Shown here piece by piece: positions 1-32,184 of a stretch of DNA of 37,945 nucleotides. Made by a program: the position numbers and the translations under genes. Positions within the stretch are counted from its first letter, which is position 1. Each line of letters begins with the position of its first letter. The notes beneath the pieces were generated by a model that was not told where the DNA came from, did no database searches, and was given only the letters and a program-made list of their open reading frames with translations. Source of the DNA: Thermoproteota archaeon (GTDB lineage: Archaea; Thermoproteota; Bathyarchaeia; Bathyarchaeales; Bathycorpusculaceae); the NCBI GenBank assembly GCA_012513715.1, contig JAAZBP010000084.1, positions 1 through 37,945 of the forward strand, in the 5' to 3' direction.

Positions 1-206
1 ATGGGTAGCAGATATACCCTACCTGATAATCGAGGATCAGTTTGTATAGTGGCTACATTTGGATTGATTAAAACGGTTTTTATACCTTCTTCATTTAGAG
101 CTTTTAGGCATTGACTACCAGAGTAATCGAATTCTGCGGCTTCACCAATTTTAATGGCGCCACTTCCCAGAACTAGTACTTTCTGTATCCAATCTAACTT
201 GGGCAT
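1..206 (-). CDS. carB: Carbamoyl-phosphate synthase large subunit, second copy (N-terminal part only)
   Basis: Reading leftwards from an ATG at 206, the first 68 residues start [16 protein letters not shown] and run into the window edge without a stop. They match the start of the first ATP-grasp half of CarB (motifs [25 protein letters not shown]) and agree with the complete CarB at 1485-4658 at roughly 70% of positions, so this is a diverged paralogue and not a recent duplication. The ATG lies one base after the carA stop codon, so carA and this copy are almost certainly co-translated. By family, CarB makes carbamoyl phosphate from bicarbonate, ATP and ammonia delivered by CarA. Whether this copy is full length cannot be seen here. 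It is most simply the partner of the adjacent carA, leaving the role of the other copy open. Confidence 0.93.
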
Positions 207-207
207 T

Positions 208-1347
208 TTAGTGAACCTCTAAATTTTTAGCAAAAACATCAAACAATAATTCGGTATCATAAGGCCCAGGTGAAGCTTCAGGATGCCATTGCACAGCAAA
301 AACAGGTTTGTTCTTGTGACGAATACCTTCTGTGGTTTTATCGTTTGGGTTTATGAACCAAGGCTCAAGCTGGGTCGCCTTAAGAGATTCCATGTTTATA
401 GCGTAACCATGATTTTGTGTTGTAATATAACAACGTCTATTGATTAAATCAAGCGCTGGCTGATTTTGTGCACGGTGACCGAATTTAAGTTTGTATGTGT
501 CTGCGCCCATAGCCAAAGCGATAATTTGAGCGCCTAGGCAAATGCCCATAACAGGCAATTTTTCACATAATTCTCTTATTGTTGCTACTGTTTGAATACA
601 TTTCTTTGGGTCACCTGGACCATTACTGAGCAAAATGCCATCAGGATTATAAAATAAAACATCATTTGCTGAAGTATCATAGGGTACGCGAACAACGTTT
701 ATTCCTCGTTTAAGCAGATTTCGTATAATACTATACTTTACTCCACAATCAATTAGCACAACTGTTTTTCTCCCGTTAACATTATAGGTTACTGGATTTT
801 TTGTTGTAACTTTCGCCACCAAATCAGTCAGGTTAGGATCAGCGATAGTCTTACAGTTCTCAAGCAAAACATCAAAGTTAGGGTCGTCGTTTTTTTCAAA
901 AACCTGCAGTAAACCAAGCATAACTCCACGGTTTCTAAGTTTCTTAGTTAATCTACGTGTATCTAAACCATAAATTCCAGGTATCCCCTCTCCAGATAAC
1001 CACTCATTTAGTGTACTTGAAGATGCCCAATGATATGGTTCATGGCATAAGTCATGAATTACTAAACCATTGACTTGAATTTTATCAGACTCAAAATATA
1101 AAGGTAAATCTAAATCAAGAACTTTTGATGGAACGCCATAATTGCCTACCAGAGGATAAGTTAAGCTTAAGATTTGACCCTTGTATGATGGATCAGTTAA
1201 AGCTTCTGGGTAACCAACCATCTGGGTTGAAAAGACTACTTCTCCAGAAGTTTTTCCAGTGGCACCAAAACCGTTACCTAGAAATAGTGTTCCGTCTTCT
1301 AGAACCAGAACTGCTTTTTTATTGCCGGTGGAATTAAAGTTTAGTAT
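208..1347 (-). CDS. carA: Carbamoyl-phosphate synthase small (glutaminase) subunit, apparent ATA start
   Basis: This is the glutamine amidotransferase subunit that releases ammonia for CarB, feeding arginine and pyrimidine synthesis. The class I amidotransferase triad is visible: Cys in GICLGAQ (about residue 270) and His/Glu in WHPEA (355/357). The first ATG in frame (1221) would cut off the family's conserved N-terminal strand. The frame stays open upstream and encodes [19 protein letters not shown], just what CarA starts with. Between the upstream in-frame stop and 1221 there is no ATG, GTG or TTG. A strong ribosome site GGAGGG (1358-1353) sits five bases before an ATA at 1347-1345, so I place the start there (379 residues, a normal CarA length). 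A sequencing or assembly error in the start codon is the alternative. The stop is one base before the second carB. Confidence 0.9.
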
Positions 1348-1352
1348 TGAAA

Positions 1353-1358
1353 CCCTCC
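1353..1358 (-). promoter_or_regulatory. Shine-Dalgarno site that fixes the carA start
   Basis: GGAGGG on the minus strand, five bases upstream of the ATA codon at 1347. It is the only good ribosome site near the 5' end of carA. The internal ATG at 1221 would discard 42 conserved residues, so this site decides the start. Confidence 0.65.
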
Positions 1359-1400
1359 ACCTAATTTTGATTAGTACTCTTAAATGTTACCCATTTATTT

Positions 1401-1484: not shown

Positions 1485-4400
1485 TTAGCTTATTTGTAGG
1501 TTTATGTTATTTCGCAATGCATTAGCTAGACTATCAACTAATTCTAAATTCGTGAAAACTGGAACACCCAATTCAACAGCTTTTCTACGAATAAGGTAAC
1601 CGTCTGTAATCGCCTGTGCCACAATTCGATTTGGATGAGGTATATTGAATACAAAATTAATTTTCCGCTCAGCCAAAAGGTCGAGAGCATTAGGTTTCTT
1701 TCCTTCACTTATTTTATAAACTTTCTCGCACACAATACCATTTGCGGTTAATGCGTCAGCTGTGTGGCCAGTAGCAAGTATCCTGTAACCATTGTGCATA
1801 ATTTTTTTGGCAGTCTCAACAGCTTTTTCTTTTTCGCCGCCCACGCTTATAAGTATAGAATCGCCTGGTTTGGGTATTTTTGTACCACCAGCTATCATAG
1901 CTTTCAACAGAGCTTCCTCAAAACTTCTACCGAAGCAAGCAACTTCTCCAGTTGAAACCATTTCTACTCCAGTGATGGGGTCTGCACCCTCAAGACGCAT
2001 AAAAGAAAACTGTGGATATTTAACTCCAAATTTTTCAACTACCGCTTCTCCATCTTCGATTTTCTCGCCTAACATTGCGTTTGCAGCTATATCCATGAGG
2101 TTTTTACCTATTGCTTTGGAAACAAAAGGCATGCTTCTAGAAGCTCTGAGGTTACATTCTATGACGAATACATCACGGTTTTTTACTAAATATTGAATGT
2201 TGAAAGGACCTTTGATACATAGATCTCTTGCTATTTTCCTAGTTATTCTGCGTATCTTCTCTTTAGTTATCTCATCTATTGTCATAGCAGGTAAAGACAT
2301 TGTGGCGTCTCCGGAGTGTACACCAGCATTCTCTACATGTTCGATTATTGCACCTACAAAGACGTTTTCTCCATCGCAGACTCCGTCAACTTCAACTTCT
2401 CGAGCGTTTAACATGAACTTTGAAATCACTACTGGGTGTTCTTTTGAGACATCAGTTGCCTTTTTAAGGTAGTCTTCAAGTTGTGTTTCGTCATATGCAA
2501 CACTCATTGCAGACCCTGATAAAACGTAAGAAGGCCTAATTAGTACTGGATAACCAATTCTACTGGCGAAAACTTTAGATTTTTCTAAACTTTCTAGTTT
2601 ACTCCATTTGGGTTGCTCTATTTCCAAGTCATCTAGTAAATCACTAAATTTAGATCGATCTTCTGCACGGTCAATGTCTTTTGCAGTAGTTCCTAAAAGT
2701 TTTATTCCGTTTGCATCAAGTTTAAGTGCTAAATTGTTGGGTATTTGACCGCCTACACTAACTACTACACTAGGATGATTTTCTTTTTCCACAATGTCTA
2801 GTACACGCTCTAATGTTAACTCTTCAAAATACAGTTTATCTAAAACGTCAAAGTCAGTTGATACTGTTTCTGGGTTACAGTTTATCATAACTACTTCTTT
2901 AATTCCTCTTTCCTTCAAAGCCCAAGTAGTGTTAACGCAACACCAATCAAATTCTACACTAGAACCAATACGATAACAACCTGACCCTAATACGATTGCT
3001 TTGTTTGATTCAGAGAAATTTACTTCATCAGTTTTATCACTGTTGTAGGTACAATAGAGATAGTTTGCTTTTTCAGACCACCGTTTTGCTGTTTGAATTT
3101 GTTTAACTGCAGGTTTAATGTTGAATATTGAACGGAGTTCTCTAATTGTATCTTCATTCTTTCCGAAAAGTTCTCCAATTTTTTTGTCTGAGAACCCGAG
3201 AAGCTTTGCTTTCTTGAGACTTTCTTGAGTTAAGCCTGTCGCAGCTAATTCTTTTTCATATTCAACTATTTTTTTTATGCTCTCAAGAAAGAGGGGCACT
3301 ATTCCAGTTAATCTATTCACTTCTTCAATAGCTATTCCTTTTCGTATGGCTTCAACCACATAAAAAAGACGCTCATCTGTGGGATGTTTTAACTCGTTTT
3401 TAATAATGTTCAAGTCAGTCTCATTGAGTTGATTGGTCAACTCTCTACCGTTACCAATCATTCTTACTGCTTTCTGCAAGGCTTCCTCAAAAGTCTTACC
3501 GATAGACATGACCTCTCCGACAGATTTCATTTGTGTACCTAAACGACGGTTGAGGTTTCTGAATTTCTGGAAGTCCCATCTGGGCATTTTTACTACTATG
3601 TAATCAACAACAGGTTCCAAGATACCTGCAGGTTTCCCAGTGAGTTTATTGACTATTTCAGGTAATCTATAACCTAAAGCCATTTTTGCTGTGACATATG
3701 CAATAGGATAACCAGTTGCCTTAGAAGCTAAAGCAGAACTCCTTGATAATCTTGAATTGACTTCTATTACTTTGTATTCGCCTGTAACTGGGTGAACTGC
3801 ATATTGAATGTTACATTCTCCAACTAGACCAAGAGCTTTCAATACAGCAAAACTAGTAGATTTCAATTTTTGGAATTCTTCATCACTCACGGTTTGAGAG
3901 GGGGCAACTACTATACTGTCACCAGTATGAACACCCATAGGATCAAAATTTTCCATACTGCAAACAATCATGCAGTTATCATCTAAATCTCTCAAAACTT
4001 CATATTCTATTTCTTTCCATTTTCCAACATATTCTTCAACCAAAACCTGAGAGATTCTACTATGAACCAAACCAATCGAAGCAACACGCCGCAACTGTTC
4101 CTCATTAAATGCAGCACCAGTTCCTTGGCCACCTAGAGTGTAGGCTACCCTGACCATTACTGGATAACCTATTTCGTTTGCTGCTCGAACAGCTTCTTCT
4201 ATAGAATTCGCCTTTTTACTTTTTGGGATAGGTACACCAGCGTTGATCATTGTTTTTCGGAAAAGGTCTCTATCATCAGCTTTTTCTATCGCCTCAACGC
4301 TTGTACCTAAAACTTTGACGTTATACTTTTCTAGAATGCCTTTCTCTGCTAGTTCGGTCCCACAGTTCAAAGCTGTTTGACCTCCGAAACCAAGTAAAAT

Positions 4401-4658
4401 CCCATCTGGGCGCTCTTTTTCTATTACTTTTTCAGCGAATTCGGGAGTTATCGGTAAGAAGTAAGCTTTATCGCCAACGAATTTTTTATCAGTTTGTATT
4501 GTAGCTACGTTAGGGTTTATTAAAACAACTTCGATACCTTCTTCTTTTACGGCTTTAATAGCTTGGGCACCTGAGTAATCAAATTCGCCGGCCTCACCAA
4601 TTTTGATAGCGCCGCTTCCAAGAATCAGGACTTTTTTAATATTTTCGAATTTCGGCAT
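1485..4658 (-). CDS. carB: Carbamoyl-phosphate synthase large subunit (complete copy)
   Basis: Full-length CarB of 1057 residues (E. coli CarB is 1073). It has the usual two homologous halves, each with an ATP-grasp domain. The first begins [18 protein letters not shown] and contains NVATIQTD and GGQTALNCG. The second begins near residue 555 with VLGSGCYRIGSSVEFDW and contains NCNPETVSTD. A C-terminal MGS-like domain (from about residue 930, ISVGGEKEKAVETAKK) is where ornithine and nucleotides bind in studied enzymes. The ATG at 4658 directly abuts the argH stop codon, so it is in the argG-argH operon. It is oddly placed upstream of carA while carA has a second carB just behind it. It may serve the arginine branch while the other copy serves pyrimidines, but that is inference. 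Confidence 0.97.
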   Translation of the reverse strand: MPKFENIKKVLILGSGAIKIGEAGEFDYSGAQAIKAVKEEGIEVVLINPNVATIQTDKKFVGDKAYFLPITPEFAEKVIEKERPDGILLGFGGQTALNCGTELAEKGILEKYNVKVLGTSVEAIEKADDRDLFRKTMINAGVPIPKSKKANSIEEAVRAANEIGYPVMVRVAYTLGGQGTGAAFNEEQLRRVASIGLVHSRISQVLVEEYVGKWKEIEYEVLRDLDDNCMIVCSMENFDPMGVHTGDSIVVAPSQTVSDEEFQKLKSTSFAVLKALGLVGECNIQYAVHPVTGEYKVIEVNSRLSRSSALASKATGYPIAYVTAKMALGYRLPEIVNKLTGKPAGILEPVVDYIVVKMPRWDFQKFRNLNRRLGTQMKSVGEVMSIGKTFEEALQKAVRMIGNGRELTNQLNETDLNIIKNELKHPTDERLFYVVEAIRKGIAIEEVNRLTGIVPLFLESIKKIVEYEKELAATGLTQESLKKAKLLGFSDKKIGELFGKNEDTIRELRSIFNIKPAVKQIQTAKRWSEKANYLYCTYNSDKTDEVNFSESNKAIVLGSGCYRIGSSVEFDWCCVNTTWALKERGIKEVVMINCNPETVSTDFDVLDKLYFEELTLERVLDIVEKENHPSVVVSVGGQIPNNLALKLDANGIKLLGTTAKDIDRAEDRSKFSDLLDDLEIEQPKWSKLESLEKSKVFASRIGYPVLIRPSYVLSGSAMSVAYDETQLEDYLKKATDVSKEHPVVISKFMLNAREVEVDGVCDGENVFVGAIIEHVENAGVHSGDATMSLPAMTIDEITKEKIRRITRKIARDLCIKGPFNIQYLVKNRDVFVIECNLRASRSMPFVSKAIGKNLMDIAANAMLGEKIEDGEAVVEKFGVKYPQFSFMRLEGADPITGVEMVSTGEVACFGRSFEEALLKAMIAGGTKIPKPGDSILISVGGEKEKAVETAKKIMHNGYRILATGHTADALTANGIVCEKVYKISEGKKPNALDLLAERKINFVFNIPHPNRIVAQAITDGYLIRRKAVELGVPVFTNLELVDSLANALRNNINLQIS

Positions 4659-28882: not shown

Positions 28883-29236
28883 ATGAGATTAATAGCGGTA
28901 ATTGGCGGAGTAATTGCTGCAGTATTGTTCTTTTTTGCAGTAATATTTGCATTAGCTTCATCTGTGCAAGCAACTACATCGCGACTTGCCATAAGCATTA
29001 TCCTATTTGCAGTTGGTTTAGCAATAATTGCTGGAATATACTATGTTACACGTAAACCCAAAACTGTTATCCAGCGCCTTGAGCTTTCTGGAGAAATGAA
29101 AGCTGCTCAAATTCGATGCCCCAACTGTTCAGGTGTAGCTGATGTGAACCAAATAAAAATAGTTTCAGGGGTACCATACATTAAATGTGCTTATTGTGGA
29201 AACATGTTTGAGGTTGTTGAGGAACCGAAATGGTAA
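28883..29236 (+). CDS. Two-helix membrane protein with C-terminal zinc ribbon
   Basis: 117 residues. Two hydrophobic helices (about 4-29 and 36-56) form a hairpin, so both ends face the same side. The tail (IRCPNCSGVADVNQIKIV, then IKCAYCGNMFEVVEEP) is a CxxC/CxxC zinc ribbon, presumably cytosolic. It is not recognised as a named family. The last codons overlap the ATG of the cysteine-tail protein by seven bases, so the two are co-translated. As the first gene of the radical SAM cluster it could help hold or present the tail or the Fe-S enzyme at the membrane. That is inference from linkage only. Confidence 0.82.
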   Translation: MRLIAVIGGVIAAVLFFFAVIFALASSVQATTSRLAISIILFAVGLAIIAGIYYVTRKPKTVIQRLELSGEMKAAQIRCPNCSGVADVNQIKIVSGVPYIKCAYCGNMFEVVEEPKW

Positions 29237-30849
29237 GAAGAAGACAACTTTTATTTTTGATTATAGTTGGGTTATTTGTTTTTTCTTTAGTTAACTTTTC
29301 GGCGGCTCAAAGTATCGAGTATAGTGTTGATCATCAATGGTGTCAAATCTTTATTAATCAAGATGGAACAATCGACTTGAAATACAATGTTACTTTAACA
29401 GTTACTTCAGGAAAAATCAATGGGTTCTATGTGGGCCAACCGAACAGTGATTTTACACCTGGCATAGCTTTAGATCAGAATAACAATTTGTTAGATGTTT
29501 TTGATGCGAGTAGTGGCAGCGACTACAAAATAGATGTAATCTTGTATGAGCCATTAACAGCTGGTAATTCTTTATGGTTCACAGTTACCACTAACGTAGC
29601 AGGTATGATATTCAATGATACCACAAACCCCGGTAACTTAGGGCTTAGATTCGCGCCACAGTGGATTTCAGATAAGACAATAAATGATGTACGGGTACAG
29701 ATTATTTTGCCAGAAGGTGTATCCTCTGGAGACTACGCAACTGAAAACCTTCCCAACGGCACCTCAACAGTTGAAGGCAGATTGGCTCTTTACTGGGAAA
29801 AAGCGTATCTAGAGCCTAATGAAAGGTTCTTTTTCGGAGTTTCTTTTCCAGCTGAATTCATGCCTGATTATAAACCAAGCGAAGACAGCTTTCAAGGTTT
29901 AGCTGTAGTAATTGCGGGTGTTGTAGCTTTCCTGTTTGCAACTTTCAGTTTCATTTTTGTACTCTCTAGAGTTGGGAAAAACAAGTATGCCTCTCCGAAA
30001 ATTAGTATGGAAACTTTAGGCATTAAACGTGGTTTAACAGCTATAGAAGCAGCATACCTTTTAGATTTAAAGCCGCAGCAAATCATTACCGCAACCCTTT
30101 ACAGTCTATTACATAAGAGGGCAGTTTGGGTAGAAAAACCGAATCCAGCAGTTAAAATCAAATTGTTACCGCCCTACGAAGACAAAATTGGCACAAAAGA
30201 AAATCCCTTAAGATACTATGAAATTGATTTTCTTAACTCGTTAAAAACTGATGGTACATTAAACGAGGAAAAACTGGCCCGCACTATTATGACCCTCCGA
30301 GATACAGTTGAGAAAAAGATAGAAGGTTACAGCAGAAAAGAAACAGTAGAGTACTACCGCAAAATAGTGGATAAAGCATGGAAACAAGTGGAGTTGGCAG
30401 GTACCCCTGAATTAGCATCTAACGCTTATGATGAACAGTTACTTTGGTTGATGCTTGATCCCAATCAGAGACAGCGTACAACAACAGTTTTCCAGGATAA
30501 AGTGTTTCAGCCTAATCCGCTTTGGTACTGGTGGTGGTATGGTTACGGAACTTATCATCCGCATCCCACGTATAAGCCGGATGTTAAAGCACCAACGCAA
30601 TCAAGTAAGCCGCCTGTTATTCCAGGCGCAGAATTCGCTGATAACATAGCAACATCTATTGAAACTACAGCAAATAGTATAGTGGCTAATATTGAGAAAT
30701 TTGCTAATTCTATTGTTCCGCCACCGCCGAAAGTATCACATCAACCAGCTCGGAAAGGGAGCAGTTGTGTTTGTGCGTGTGCAGCATGTGCATGCGCCTG
30801 TGCGTGTGTTTCATGTGCATGTGCATGTGCGGGTGGAGGTGCGCATTAA
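29230..30849 (+). CDS. Membrane protein with a cysteine-alternating C-terminal tail (putative radical SAM substrate)
   Basis: 539 residues. A signal peptide (1-26, ending FSAAQ) leads to an outer beta-rich domain (about 27-215) reminiscent of DUF2207 proteins. One transmembrane helix follows (about 223-246, AVVIAGVVAFLFATFSFIFVL), then a cytosolic domain (250-420, GLTAIEAAYLLDLKPQQIITATL). A Trp/Tyr/His/Pro-rich linker (about 430-460, NPLWYWWWYGYGTYHPHPTY) and a helix plus PPPPK spacer come next. The end is unique: Cys at 513, 515, 517, 520, 522, 524, 526, 529, 531 and 533, each separated mostly by a single Ala, then a Gly-Gly-Gly stretch and the stop. Ten Cys in 21 residues facing the cytosol cannot be an ordinary zinc site. 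The radical SAM gene starts at the very next base, so modification of this tail is the simplest reading. Confidence 0.88.
   Translation: MVRRRQLLFLIIVGLFVFSLVNFSAAQSIEYSVDHQWCQIFINQDGTIDLKYNVTLTVTSGKINGFYVGQPNSDFTPGIALDQNNNLLDVFDASSGSDYKIDVILYEPLTAGNSLWFTVTTNVAGMIFNDTTNPGNLGLRFAPQWISDKTINDVRVQIILPEGVSSGDYATENLPNGTSTVEGRLALYWEKAYLEPNERFFFGVSFPAEFMPDYKPSEDSFQGLAVVIAGVVAFLFATFSFIFVLSRVGKNKYASPKISMETLGIKRGLTAIEAAYLLDLKPQQIITATLYSLLHKRAVWVEKPNPAVKIKLLPPYEDKIGTKENPLRYYEIDFLNSLKTDGTLNEEKLARTIMTLRDTVEKKIEGYSRKETVEYYRKIVDKAWKQVELAGTPELASNAYDEQLLWLMLDPNQRQRTTTVFQDKVFQPNPLWYWWWYGYGTYHPHPTYKPDVKAPTQSSKPPVIPGAEFADNIATSIETTANSIVANIEKFANSIVPPPPKVSHQPARKGSSCVCACAACACACACVSCACACAGGGAH
30766..30828 (+). repeat. 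TGTGCA-type coding repeat encoding the Cys-Ala tail
   Basis: 63 bases built mostly from TGT-GCA/GCG units, nearly continuous alternating purine-pyrimidine. It encodes the ten alternating cysteines. Such tracts are prone to slippage in steps of six bases, which would change the number of Cys-Ala units while keeping the frame. Confidence 0.8.
30835..30841 (+). promoter_or_regulatory. Ribosome binding site of the radical SAM gene inside the tail codons
   Basis: GGAGGTG, an exact match to the archaeal anti-Shine-Dalgarno core, lies eight bases before the ATG at 30850. It is made by the Gly-Gly codons near the end of the cysteine-tail gene, so tail sequence and enzyme translation are physically linked. 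Confidence 0.75.
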
Positions 30850-32184
30850 ATGGATTTTTTGAAGAAGAAAAAGATACCGATGGGACGTTACACATATCGT
30901 GGCGAAGGCGAATTTTCAGGCATGTCCCTGCAGCTTCGAGTTGAACAGGCGGGTCGGGGGGTAATGGTGATAAACGCAAACACTGTACTCCACCTTAACC
31001 AGTCAGCTACAGCTTTTGCATATTACTTTATGCAGGGAATGCCAGAAAAAGAAGTTTTATCGAAAATATCGCAGATGTATAGGGTTAAAGCTGAAAAAGC
31101 CAAAGTAGACTACGAGAAACTCATCTATACAATCAGCACTCTAGCGCAAACTGAAAAAATTGATCCAGTGACATTTCTTGAAATTGAAAAAGAAGAACCA
31201 TTCACCTACAAGTATACAGCACCCTTACGTATGGATATGGCTTTGACGTTCAAATGCCAAAACGACTGTGTACACTGTTATGCAGGCGGATCACATCAGA
31301 CAACAGAACTCACGACAGAACAGTGGAAGCAGGTGATTGAGAAATTAAGCGAAGTTGGAGTGTTTATTTTAACTTTTACAGGCGGAGAACCTACATTACG
31401 AGACGATTTACCTGAACTGTTGGAGTATGCTCAGAATAAGGGGATAGTTACAGGCTTGATTAGTAACGGTCGTAAACTAAAAGATGAAAAATACGTTGAT
31501 ACACTAGAGAAAGCAGGTTTAGACTTTGTACAAATAACATTAGAGTCACATTTGCCGAAAGTACACGATGCCATGACCAACTCAGAGGGAAGCTGGAAAG
31601 ACACTGTTAAAGGAATAAAAAACGTTGTAAAATCAGAGATTTATGTGTCCACTAACACAACTCTAAGCAGACACAACGCTGGCGAATTCCTAAAAACCAT
31701 AGACTACATACAAGAGTTAGGGGTAGACGCGTTTGGCTGCAACAGCCTCATCTATTCAGGTAAAGCGTCAACAGTAAGTGAAGAATTCGCTTTAACAATA
31801 GATGAGTTGAAGTCGCTTCTGCCTAAAGTTAAAGAGAAAGCTCAACTTTTAAGCCTCAAATTCCTGTGGTATACACCTACACAGTATTGTCAATTTAACC
31901 CAGTTCAGTTTGGGTTAGGAGTAAAAAGCTGTACCGCTGCCCTGATCAATGCATGCGTAGGACCTAACGGAGATGTCTATCCCTGTCAAAGCTATTTTGA
32001 AAGCTTAGGAAACATACTTACTGAGCAATGGGAAAAAATTTGGAGCCACCCACTGGCAGAAAAACTTCGAAGCAGAAGCTATGCAGAAGAAAAATGTAAA
32101 GACTGCAGCGACTTACAAGTTTGCGGTGCAGGTTGCCCTCTAGAACTTCAAGATAAAGAACATAAATGCACCTCACCAGGTTAA
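30850..32184 (+). CDS. Radical SAM/SPASM peptide-modifying enzyme with PqqD-like N-terminal domain
   Basis: 444 residues. Residues about 25-95 (VMVINANTVLHLNQSATAFAYYF, then MPEKEVLSKISQMYRV) read as a PqqD/RiPP-recognition-like domain, which binds precursor peptides. The radical SAM core has the 4Fe-4S motif Cys136-x3-Cys140-x2-Cys143 (KCQNDCVHCYAG) and the SAM-binding GGEPTLR (178-184). The C-terminal SPASM domain brings Cys361, 369 and 379 and Cys416-x2-419-x5-425-x3-429, with Cys440, the set for two auxiliary clusters. This architecture is that of sactipeptide, ranthipeptide and similar maturases that link Cys sulfur to backbone carbons. The ATG abuts the stop of the cysteine-tail gene. 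The exact reaction is unknown; heme- or quinone-related SPASM enzymes are the alternative. Confidence 0.93.
   Translation: MDFLKKKKIPMGRYTYRGEGEFSGMSLQLRVEQAGRGVMVINANTVLHLNQSATAFAYYFMQGMPEKEVLSKISQMYRVKAEKAKVDYEKLIYTISTLAQTEKIDPVTFLEIEKEEPFTYKYTAPLRMDMALTFKCQNDCVHCYAGGSHQTTELTTEQWKQVIEKLSEVGVFILTFTGGEPTLRDDLPELLEYAQNKGIVTGLISNGRKLKDEKYVDTLEKAGLDFVQITLESHLPKVHDAMTNSEGSWKDTVKGIKNVVKSEIYVSTNTTLSRHNAGEFLKTIDYIQELGVDAFGCNSLIYSGKASTVSEEFALTIDELKSLLPKVKEKAQLLSLKFLWYTPTQYCQFNPVQFGLGVKSCTAALINACVGPNGDVYPCQSYFESLGNILTEQWEKIWSHPLAEKLRSRSYAEEKCKDCSDLQVCGAGCPLELQDKEHKCTSPG

Follow-up and report, generated by a model that had tools for sequence, protein, structure and literature searches.

The carA gene of an uncultured Bathycorpusculum-like archaeon (Bathyarchaeia) is probably translated from an AUA codon at 1347-1345 of the minus strand through initiation assisted by a Shine-Dalgarno (SD) sequence, with AUC as the probable counterpart in a second genome of the genus, loss of the ancestral UUG start and a reduced supply of CarA. 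The window, that is, the whole stretch of DNA analysed, is contig C36 of 37,945 bases, and belongs to a genome of 2.13 Mb in 247 contigs (hereafter G000), whose named relatives are Candidatus Bathycorpusculum and other Bathyarchaeota. In this genome, carA is present as a sole copy, the other match being a different GATase (30%); it is adjoined by the arginine genes argG and argH and has a carB gene on either side, carB1 upstream and carB2 downstream, as expected of a CarA locus (Table 1). The product also carries the domains that define CarA, with matches to Pfam PF00988 (CPSase_sm_chain) at residues 14-146 counted from the ATA (6.6e-48) and to PF00117 (class-I GATase, 2.9e-52), both far above the curated cut-offs. 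Elsewhere in the window (29230-32184, plus strand), a membrane protein with a Cys-Ala repeat tail (CVCACAACACACACVSCACACAGGGAH) is directly followed by a radical SAM/SPASM-like gene, as recognized by eye, and the two may form a peptide-modification pair.

Table 1. Features of the carA region in the window, with positions counted from its first base.
Feature	Position	Strand	Remark
carB2, 5′ part	1..206	-	cut by the contig end; the remainder appears to be on contig C86
carA	208..1347	-	379 aa if begun at the ATA; the stop codon ends at 208
First canonical in-frame ATG	1219..1221	-	residue 43 with the ATA as residue 1; within the conserved domain of CarA
ATA, proposed start codon	1345..1347	-	no other near-cognate codon lies at SD distance; ATC at the matching site in G009
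GGAGGG, SD sequence	1353..1358	-	complementary to CCUCC of the 16S tail GGATCACCTCCT in G007; conserved in G009
TTTAAG, TATA-box-like	1379..1384	-	~24 nt upstream of GGAGGG; TTTAAA in G009; inferred from the consensus only
carB1	1485..4658	-	extra CarB gene, between argH and carA

The carA frame is open from a TAA at 1389-1387 (minus strand), after which the codons read CAT TTA AGA GTA CTA ATC AAA ATT AGG TGG AGG GTT TCA ATA CTA AAC TTT AAT TCC ACC GGC AAT AAA AAA GCA, and ATG, GTG and TTG are absent until the ATG at 1221-1219. These in-frame codons bear out the statement of an earlier note on this DNA that no canonical start precedes residue 43; the coordinates that it gave for a GGAGGG five bases before an in-frame ATA are likewise right, since TTTCA (5 nt) separates the GGAGGG at 1358-1353 from the ATA at 1347-1345. 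For the 31-codon segment that begins at Ala12 and stops just short of Met43, the comparison with six relatives gives a dN of 0.09-0.17 and a dS of 0.85-2.9; this strong purifying selection upstream of ATG 1221 argues that the CarA N-terminus ahead of Met43 is translated. Residue 2-3 of the Escherichia coli CarA chain aligns with residue 10 of the G000 protein counted from the ATA, and there is no sign of a frameshift in carA. A truncated CarA begun at ATG 1221 was considered and rejected, since it would drop conserved and selected residues.

The 16S rRNA gene is absent from the G000 assembly, and the anti-SD was therefore read from the genus member G007, whose 16S ends in GGATCACCTCCT, with CCTCC as the anti-SD; more than 60% of the assigned starts have at least four bases matching it at a suitable distance, an upper figure because the starts were partly chosen by their SD. 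The motif GGAGGG is found 52 times in 2 x 517 kb of G000, or one per ~20 kb of strand, and its occurrence by chance within ~30 nt of the carA N-terminus has a p of ~0.0015. An ATH codon follows ~22% of the GGAGG sites at an SD-like distance (any register), and is thus not rare alone; the case for the AUA start is therefore carried by the lack of a canonical start taken together with the SD and a similarly arranged relative. When 517 kb of G000 were compared with 1.2 Mb of G007, 133 conserved G000 genes were closed on their 5′ side, and four of these were candidates for the lack of a canonical start before the conserved sequence, namely carA, a CBS-domain gene broken by a TAA and two cases of weak alignment at the 5′ edge. 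Only carA lacked such a start in an intact frame, which indicates that AUA starts are not general in G000, and a genome-wide use of AUA is not supported. The CBS-domain-like gene (L113:9337-10353, contig C6), with its in-frame TAA, is 89% identical to the G007 homologue.

Within the genus, 29 of 32 genomes yielded a carA, 28 of them with a readable start region; the canonical start is missing in only two of these 28, G000 and G009 (JAAYYI010000092, isolate AS06rmzACSIP_217), which was separately assembled, and the remaining members have TTG or ATG. The majority of the relatives have a TTG slightly upstream, in the context TAGGGCTTTGGTCC and ~30 nt after a TATA-like CTTAAAAA; one subclade carries an additional ATG further in, six codons ahead of the conserved KKA, and in the outgroups the usual carA codon is TTG, set in GGG-rich sequence. 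The start region of G009 reads TGGAGGGTTTCCAATCAAAGAATATAGCTCC, with GGAGGGTTTCCA-ATC, so that GGAGGG-TTTCA-ATA in G000 stands against GGAGGG-TTTCCA-ATC in G009; neither ATG nor GTG was found at this site in the relatives, a check that the earlier note had proposed. When the codons were aligned by eye with those of L053 and L058, TCA in G000 and CCA in G009 took the place of the ancestral TTG, and the codon after it, GTN, had become ATA and ATC, respectively. The leaders of the two genomes align across the entire carB1-carA gap, including the TATA-like TTTAA(G/A) and TGGAGGGTTTC. Overlapping this TATA-like box, there is a tiny ORF, ATGGGTAACATTTAA (MGNI*), at 1380-1394 (minus strand), with the counterpart ATGGGGAATGTTTAA (MGNV*) in G009; it is probably a promoter element, a leader peptide being the alternative.

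The organization of the leader also bears on a different reading, which is unlikely, though the most probable of the rivals, and in which another non-canonical codon is used (ATT 1365-1363, ATC 1371-1369 or a CTG inside the first strand), or the start is set by the 5′ end of a leaderless or very-short-leader mRNA rather than by the SD. The distance between the TATA-like box and the TTG of the relatives suggests leaderless-like carA mRNAs, and, from the corresponding TTTAAG of G000, located ahead of GGAGGG, the carA leader is expected to be very short; the transcript would then begin near GGAGGG, and the SD could thus sit at the extreme 5′ end or be partly absent. Nevertheless, the ATT and the ATC are upstream of the SD and neither has an SD ahead of it, the CTG is replaced by TTA in G009, and the AUH after GGAGGG is the only such codon common to both genomes. 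The SD, as part of GGUGGA, can also pair with a downstream UCCACC within 1327-1361 (minus strand), leaving the AUA in the loop, and a similar stem is possible in G009; this pairing could mask the SD, but shuffled sequence gives predicted stems that are at least as strong.

An assembly or sequencing error hiding a canonical carA codon, which was the alternative raised in the earlier note, is very unlikely: the assembly is fragmented and a single base would suffice, since a G-to-A change turns ATG into ATA, but the rest of the carA frame is intact and conserved, and the independent G009 assembly, with the same layout and an ATC behind the same SD, likewise lacks a canonical start at this site, which makes a coincidental error improbable. 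Initiation at AUA remains the best reading of the region, in partial support of the earlier interpretation.

The usual gene order in the genus is argH-carA-carB, as observed at all the other loci with enough flanking sequence and argH in place; the extra carB1 between argH and carA is restricted to G000 and G009, and within the genus the genomes with two carB genes are precisely those with an AUH start. Between these two genomes, carB1 is 88% and carB2 83% identical; the identity of carB1 to the carB2 of the genus is ~60%, and its closest homologues elsewhere in the class reach 66-74%. The hypothesis that G000 and G009 are sisters sharing one inherited insertion was rejected (AU p = 7e-7), forcing them together costing 103 log-likelihood units in the argG+argH+carA+carB2 tree; since they are not sisters, either the carB1-leader segment has passed between lineages or several other lineages have lost it. 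Among the class relatives, carA was not detected in G210, G112 and G144 (L243, L244), drafts 70-92% complete with carB1 homologues at 67-74%, and in G170 and G076, also with carB1 homologues, carA lies beside carB. The carB open frame of G210 encodes 2110 aa. The arrangement in G210, G112 and G144 suggests a stand-alone CarB, and, because carB1 homologues occur in carA-less genomes, it may be speculated that carB1 works with ammonia alone. That carA is decaying and has lost full expression, with carB1 acting as an ammonia-dependent synthetase, is the least probable explanation, since the homologues in those three genomes and the weakened start codon in both two-carB genomes are outweighed by the intact domains and purifying selection at the 5′ end of carA, the strong SD kept in both species, the carB2 still downstream in G000 and the incomplete state of the carA-less drafts.

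Under SD-assisted initiation at AUA, the GGAGGG would hold the 30S subunit, and the normal initiator Met-tRNAi (CAU) would pair with the first two bases of the codon, the mismatch at the third position being tolerated. Most likely, the AUA start arose when a second carB, bringing along a downstream leader of its own, became placed between argH and carA, with loss of the ancestral UUG; the strong SD would offset the weak AUH codon, yielding CarA at a reduced level. A CarA output lower than that of the two carB genes is plausible; low output would be expected because AUG, GUG and UUG are the archaeal starts named in a review (PMC7531240) and aIF1 of Sulfolobus solfataricus favours discrimination against non-canonical starts (PMC6237735), an activity that also counts against the use of AUA. 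A low level of CarA may be either useful in the presence of two carB genes or merely a tolerated accident; it is rather unlikely that AUA/AUC has been selected to restrain the translation of CarA in connection with a transferred carB1-leader segment, such that an ammonia-using stand-alone CarB1 and a glutamine-using CarA-CarB2 would share one operon with CarA fixed at a low level. From these sequence comparisons, we infer the use and efficiency of AUA, the succession of steps and a benefit, if any. If real, these starts would mean that AUA/AUC on a gene of core metabolism can be accepted in archaeal start selection by aIF1/aIF2, and would provide two natural, testable sites within one genus. 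Moreover, gene finders commonly accept only ATG, GTG or TTG, and the annotation of carA would therefore lose its first 42 residues and misplace the leader.

A weak start on the same gene is found in E. coli, where carA is reported to start at UUG, as most Bathycorpusculum carA genes also appear to do; UUG is an accepted alternative start, whereas the AUA of G000 carA is of a very rare kind. AUA starts are known in kind from bacteria and apparently unreported in archaea, a limited literature search having found no report of one. In the study of Staphylococcus aureus (PMC13009471), the AUU starts of E. coli infC and pcnB are cited; translation of both is limited by an inefficient AUH start, as proposed for G000 carA, but infC is autoregulated by IF3, and nothing comparable is known for CarA. 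In S. aureus itself, AUA starts with extended SDs have been shown experimentally for infC, ccpN and citZ, with ~10% of the expression obtained from AUG, a figure that for ccpN rises in rich medium to as much as 30% (PMC13009471), which supports the feasibility, not the efficiency, of such a start in an archaeon. These bacterial starts are under the fidelity control of IF3 and were established by ribosome profiling and reporters, whereas the carA start of G000 would be handled by archaeal aIF1/aIF2 and is predicted from its sequence. The likeness lies in the combination of elements: in S. aureus infC, ccpN, citZ and cvfC1, an AUA or AUU codon is directed by a strong, extended SD, as proposed for the AUA of carA; the weak codon of the S. 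aureus set is conserved, and citZ encodes a metabolic enzyme (PMC13009471).
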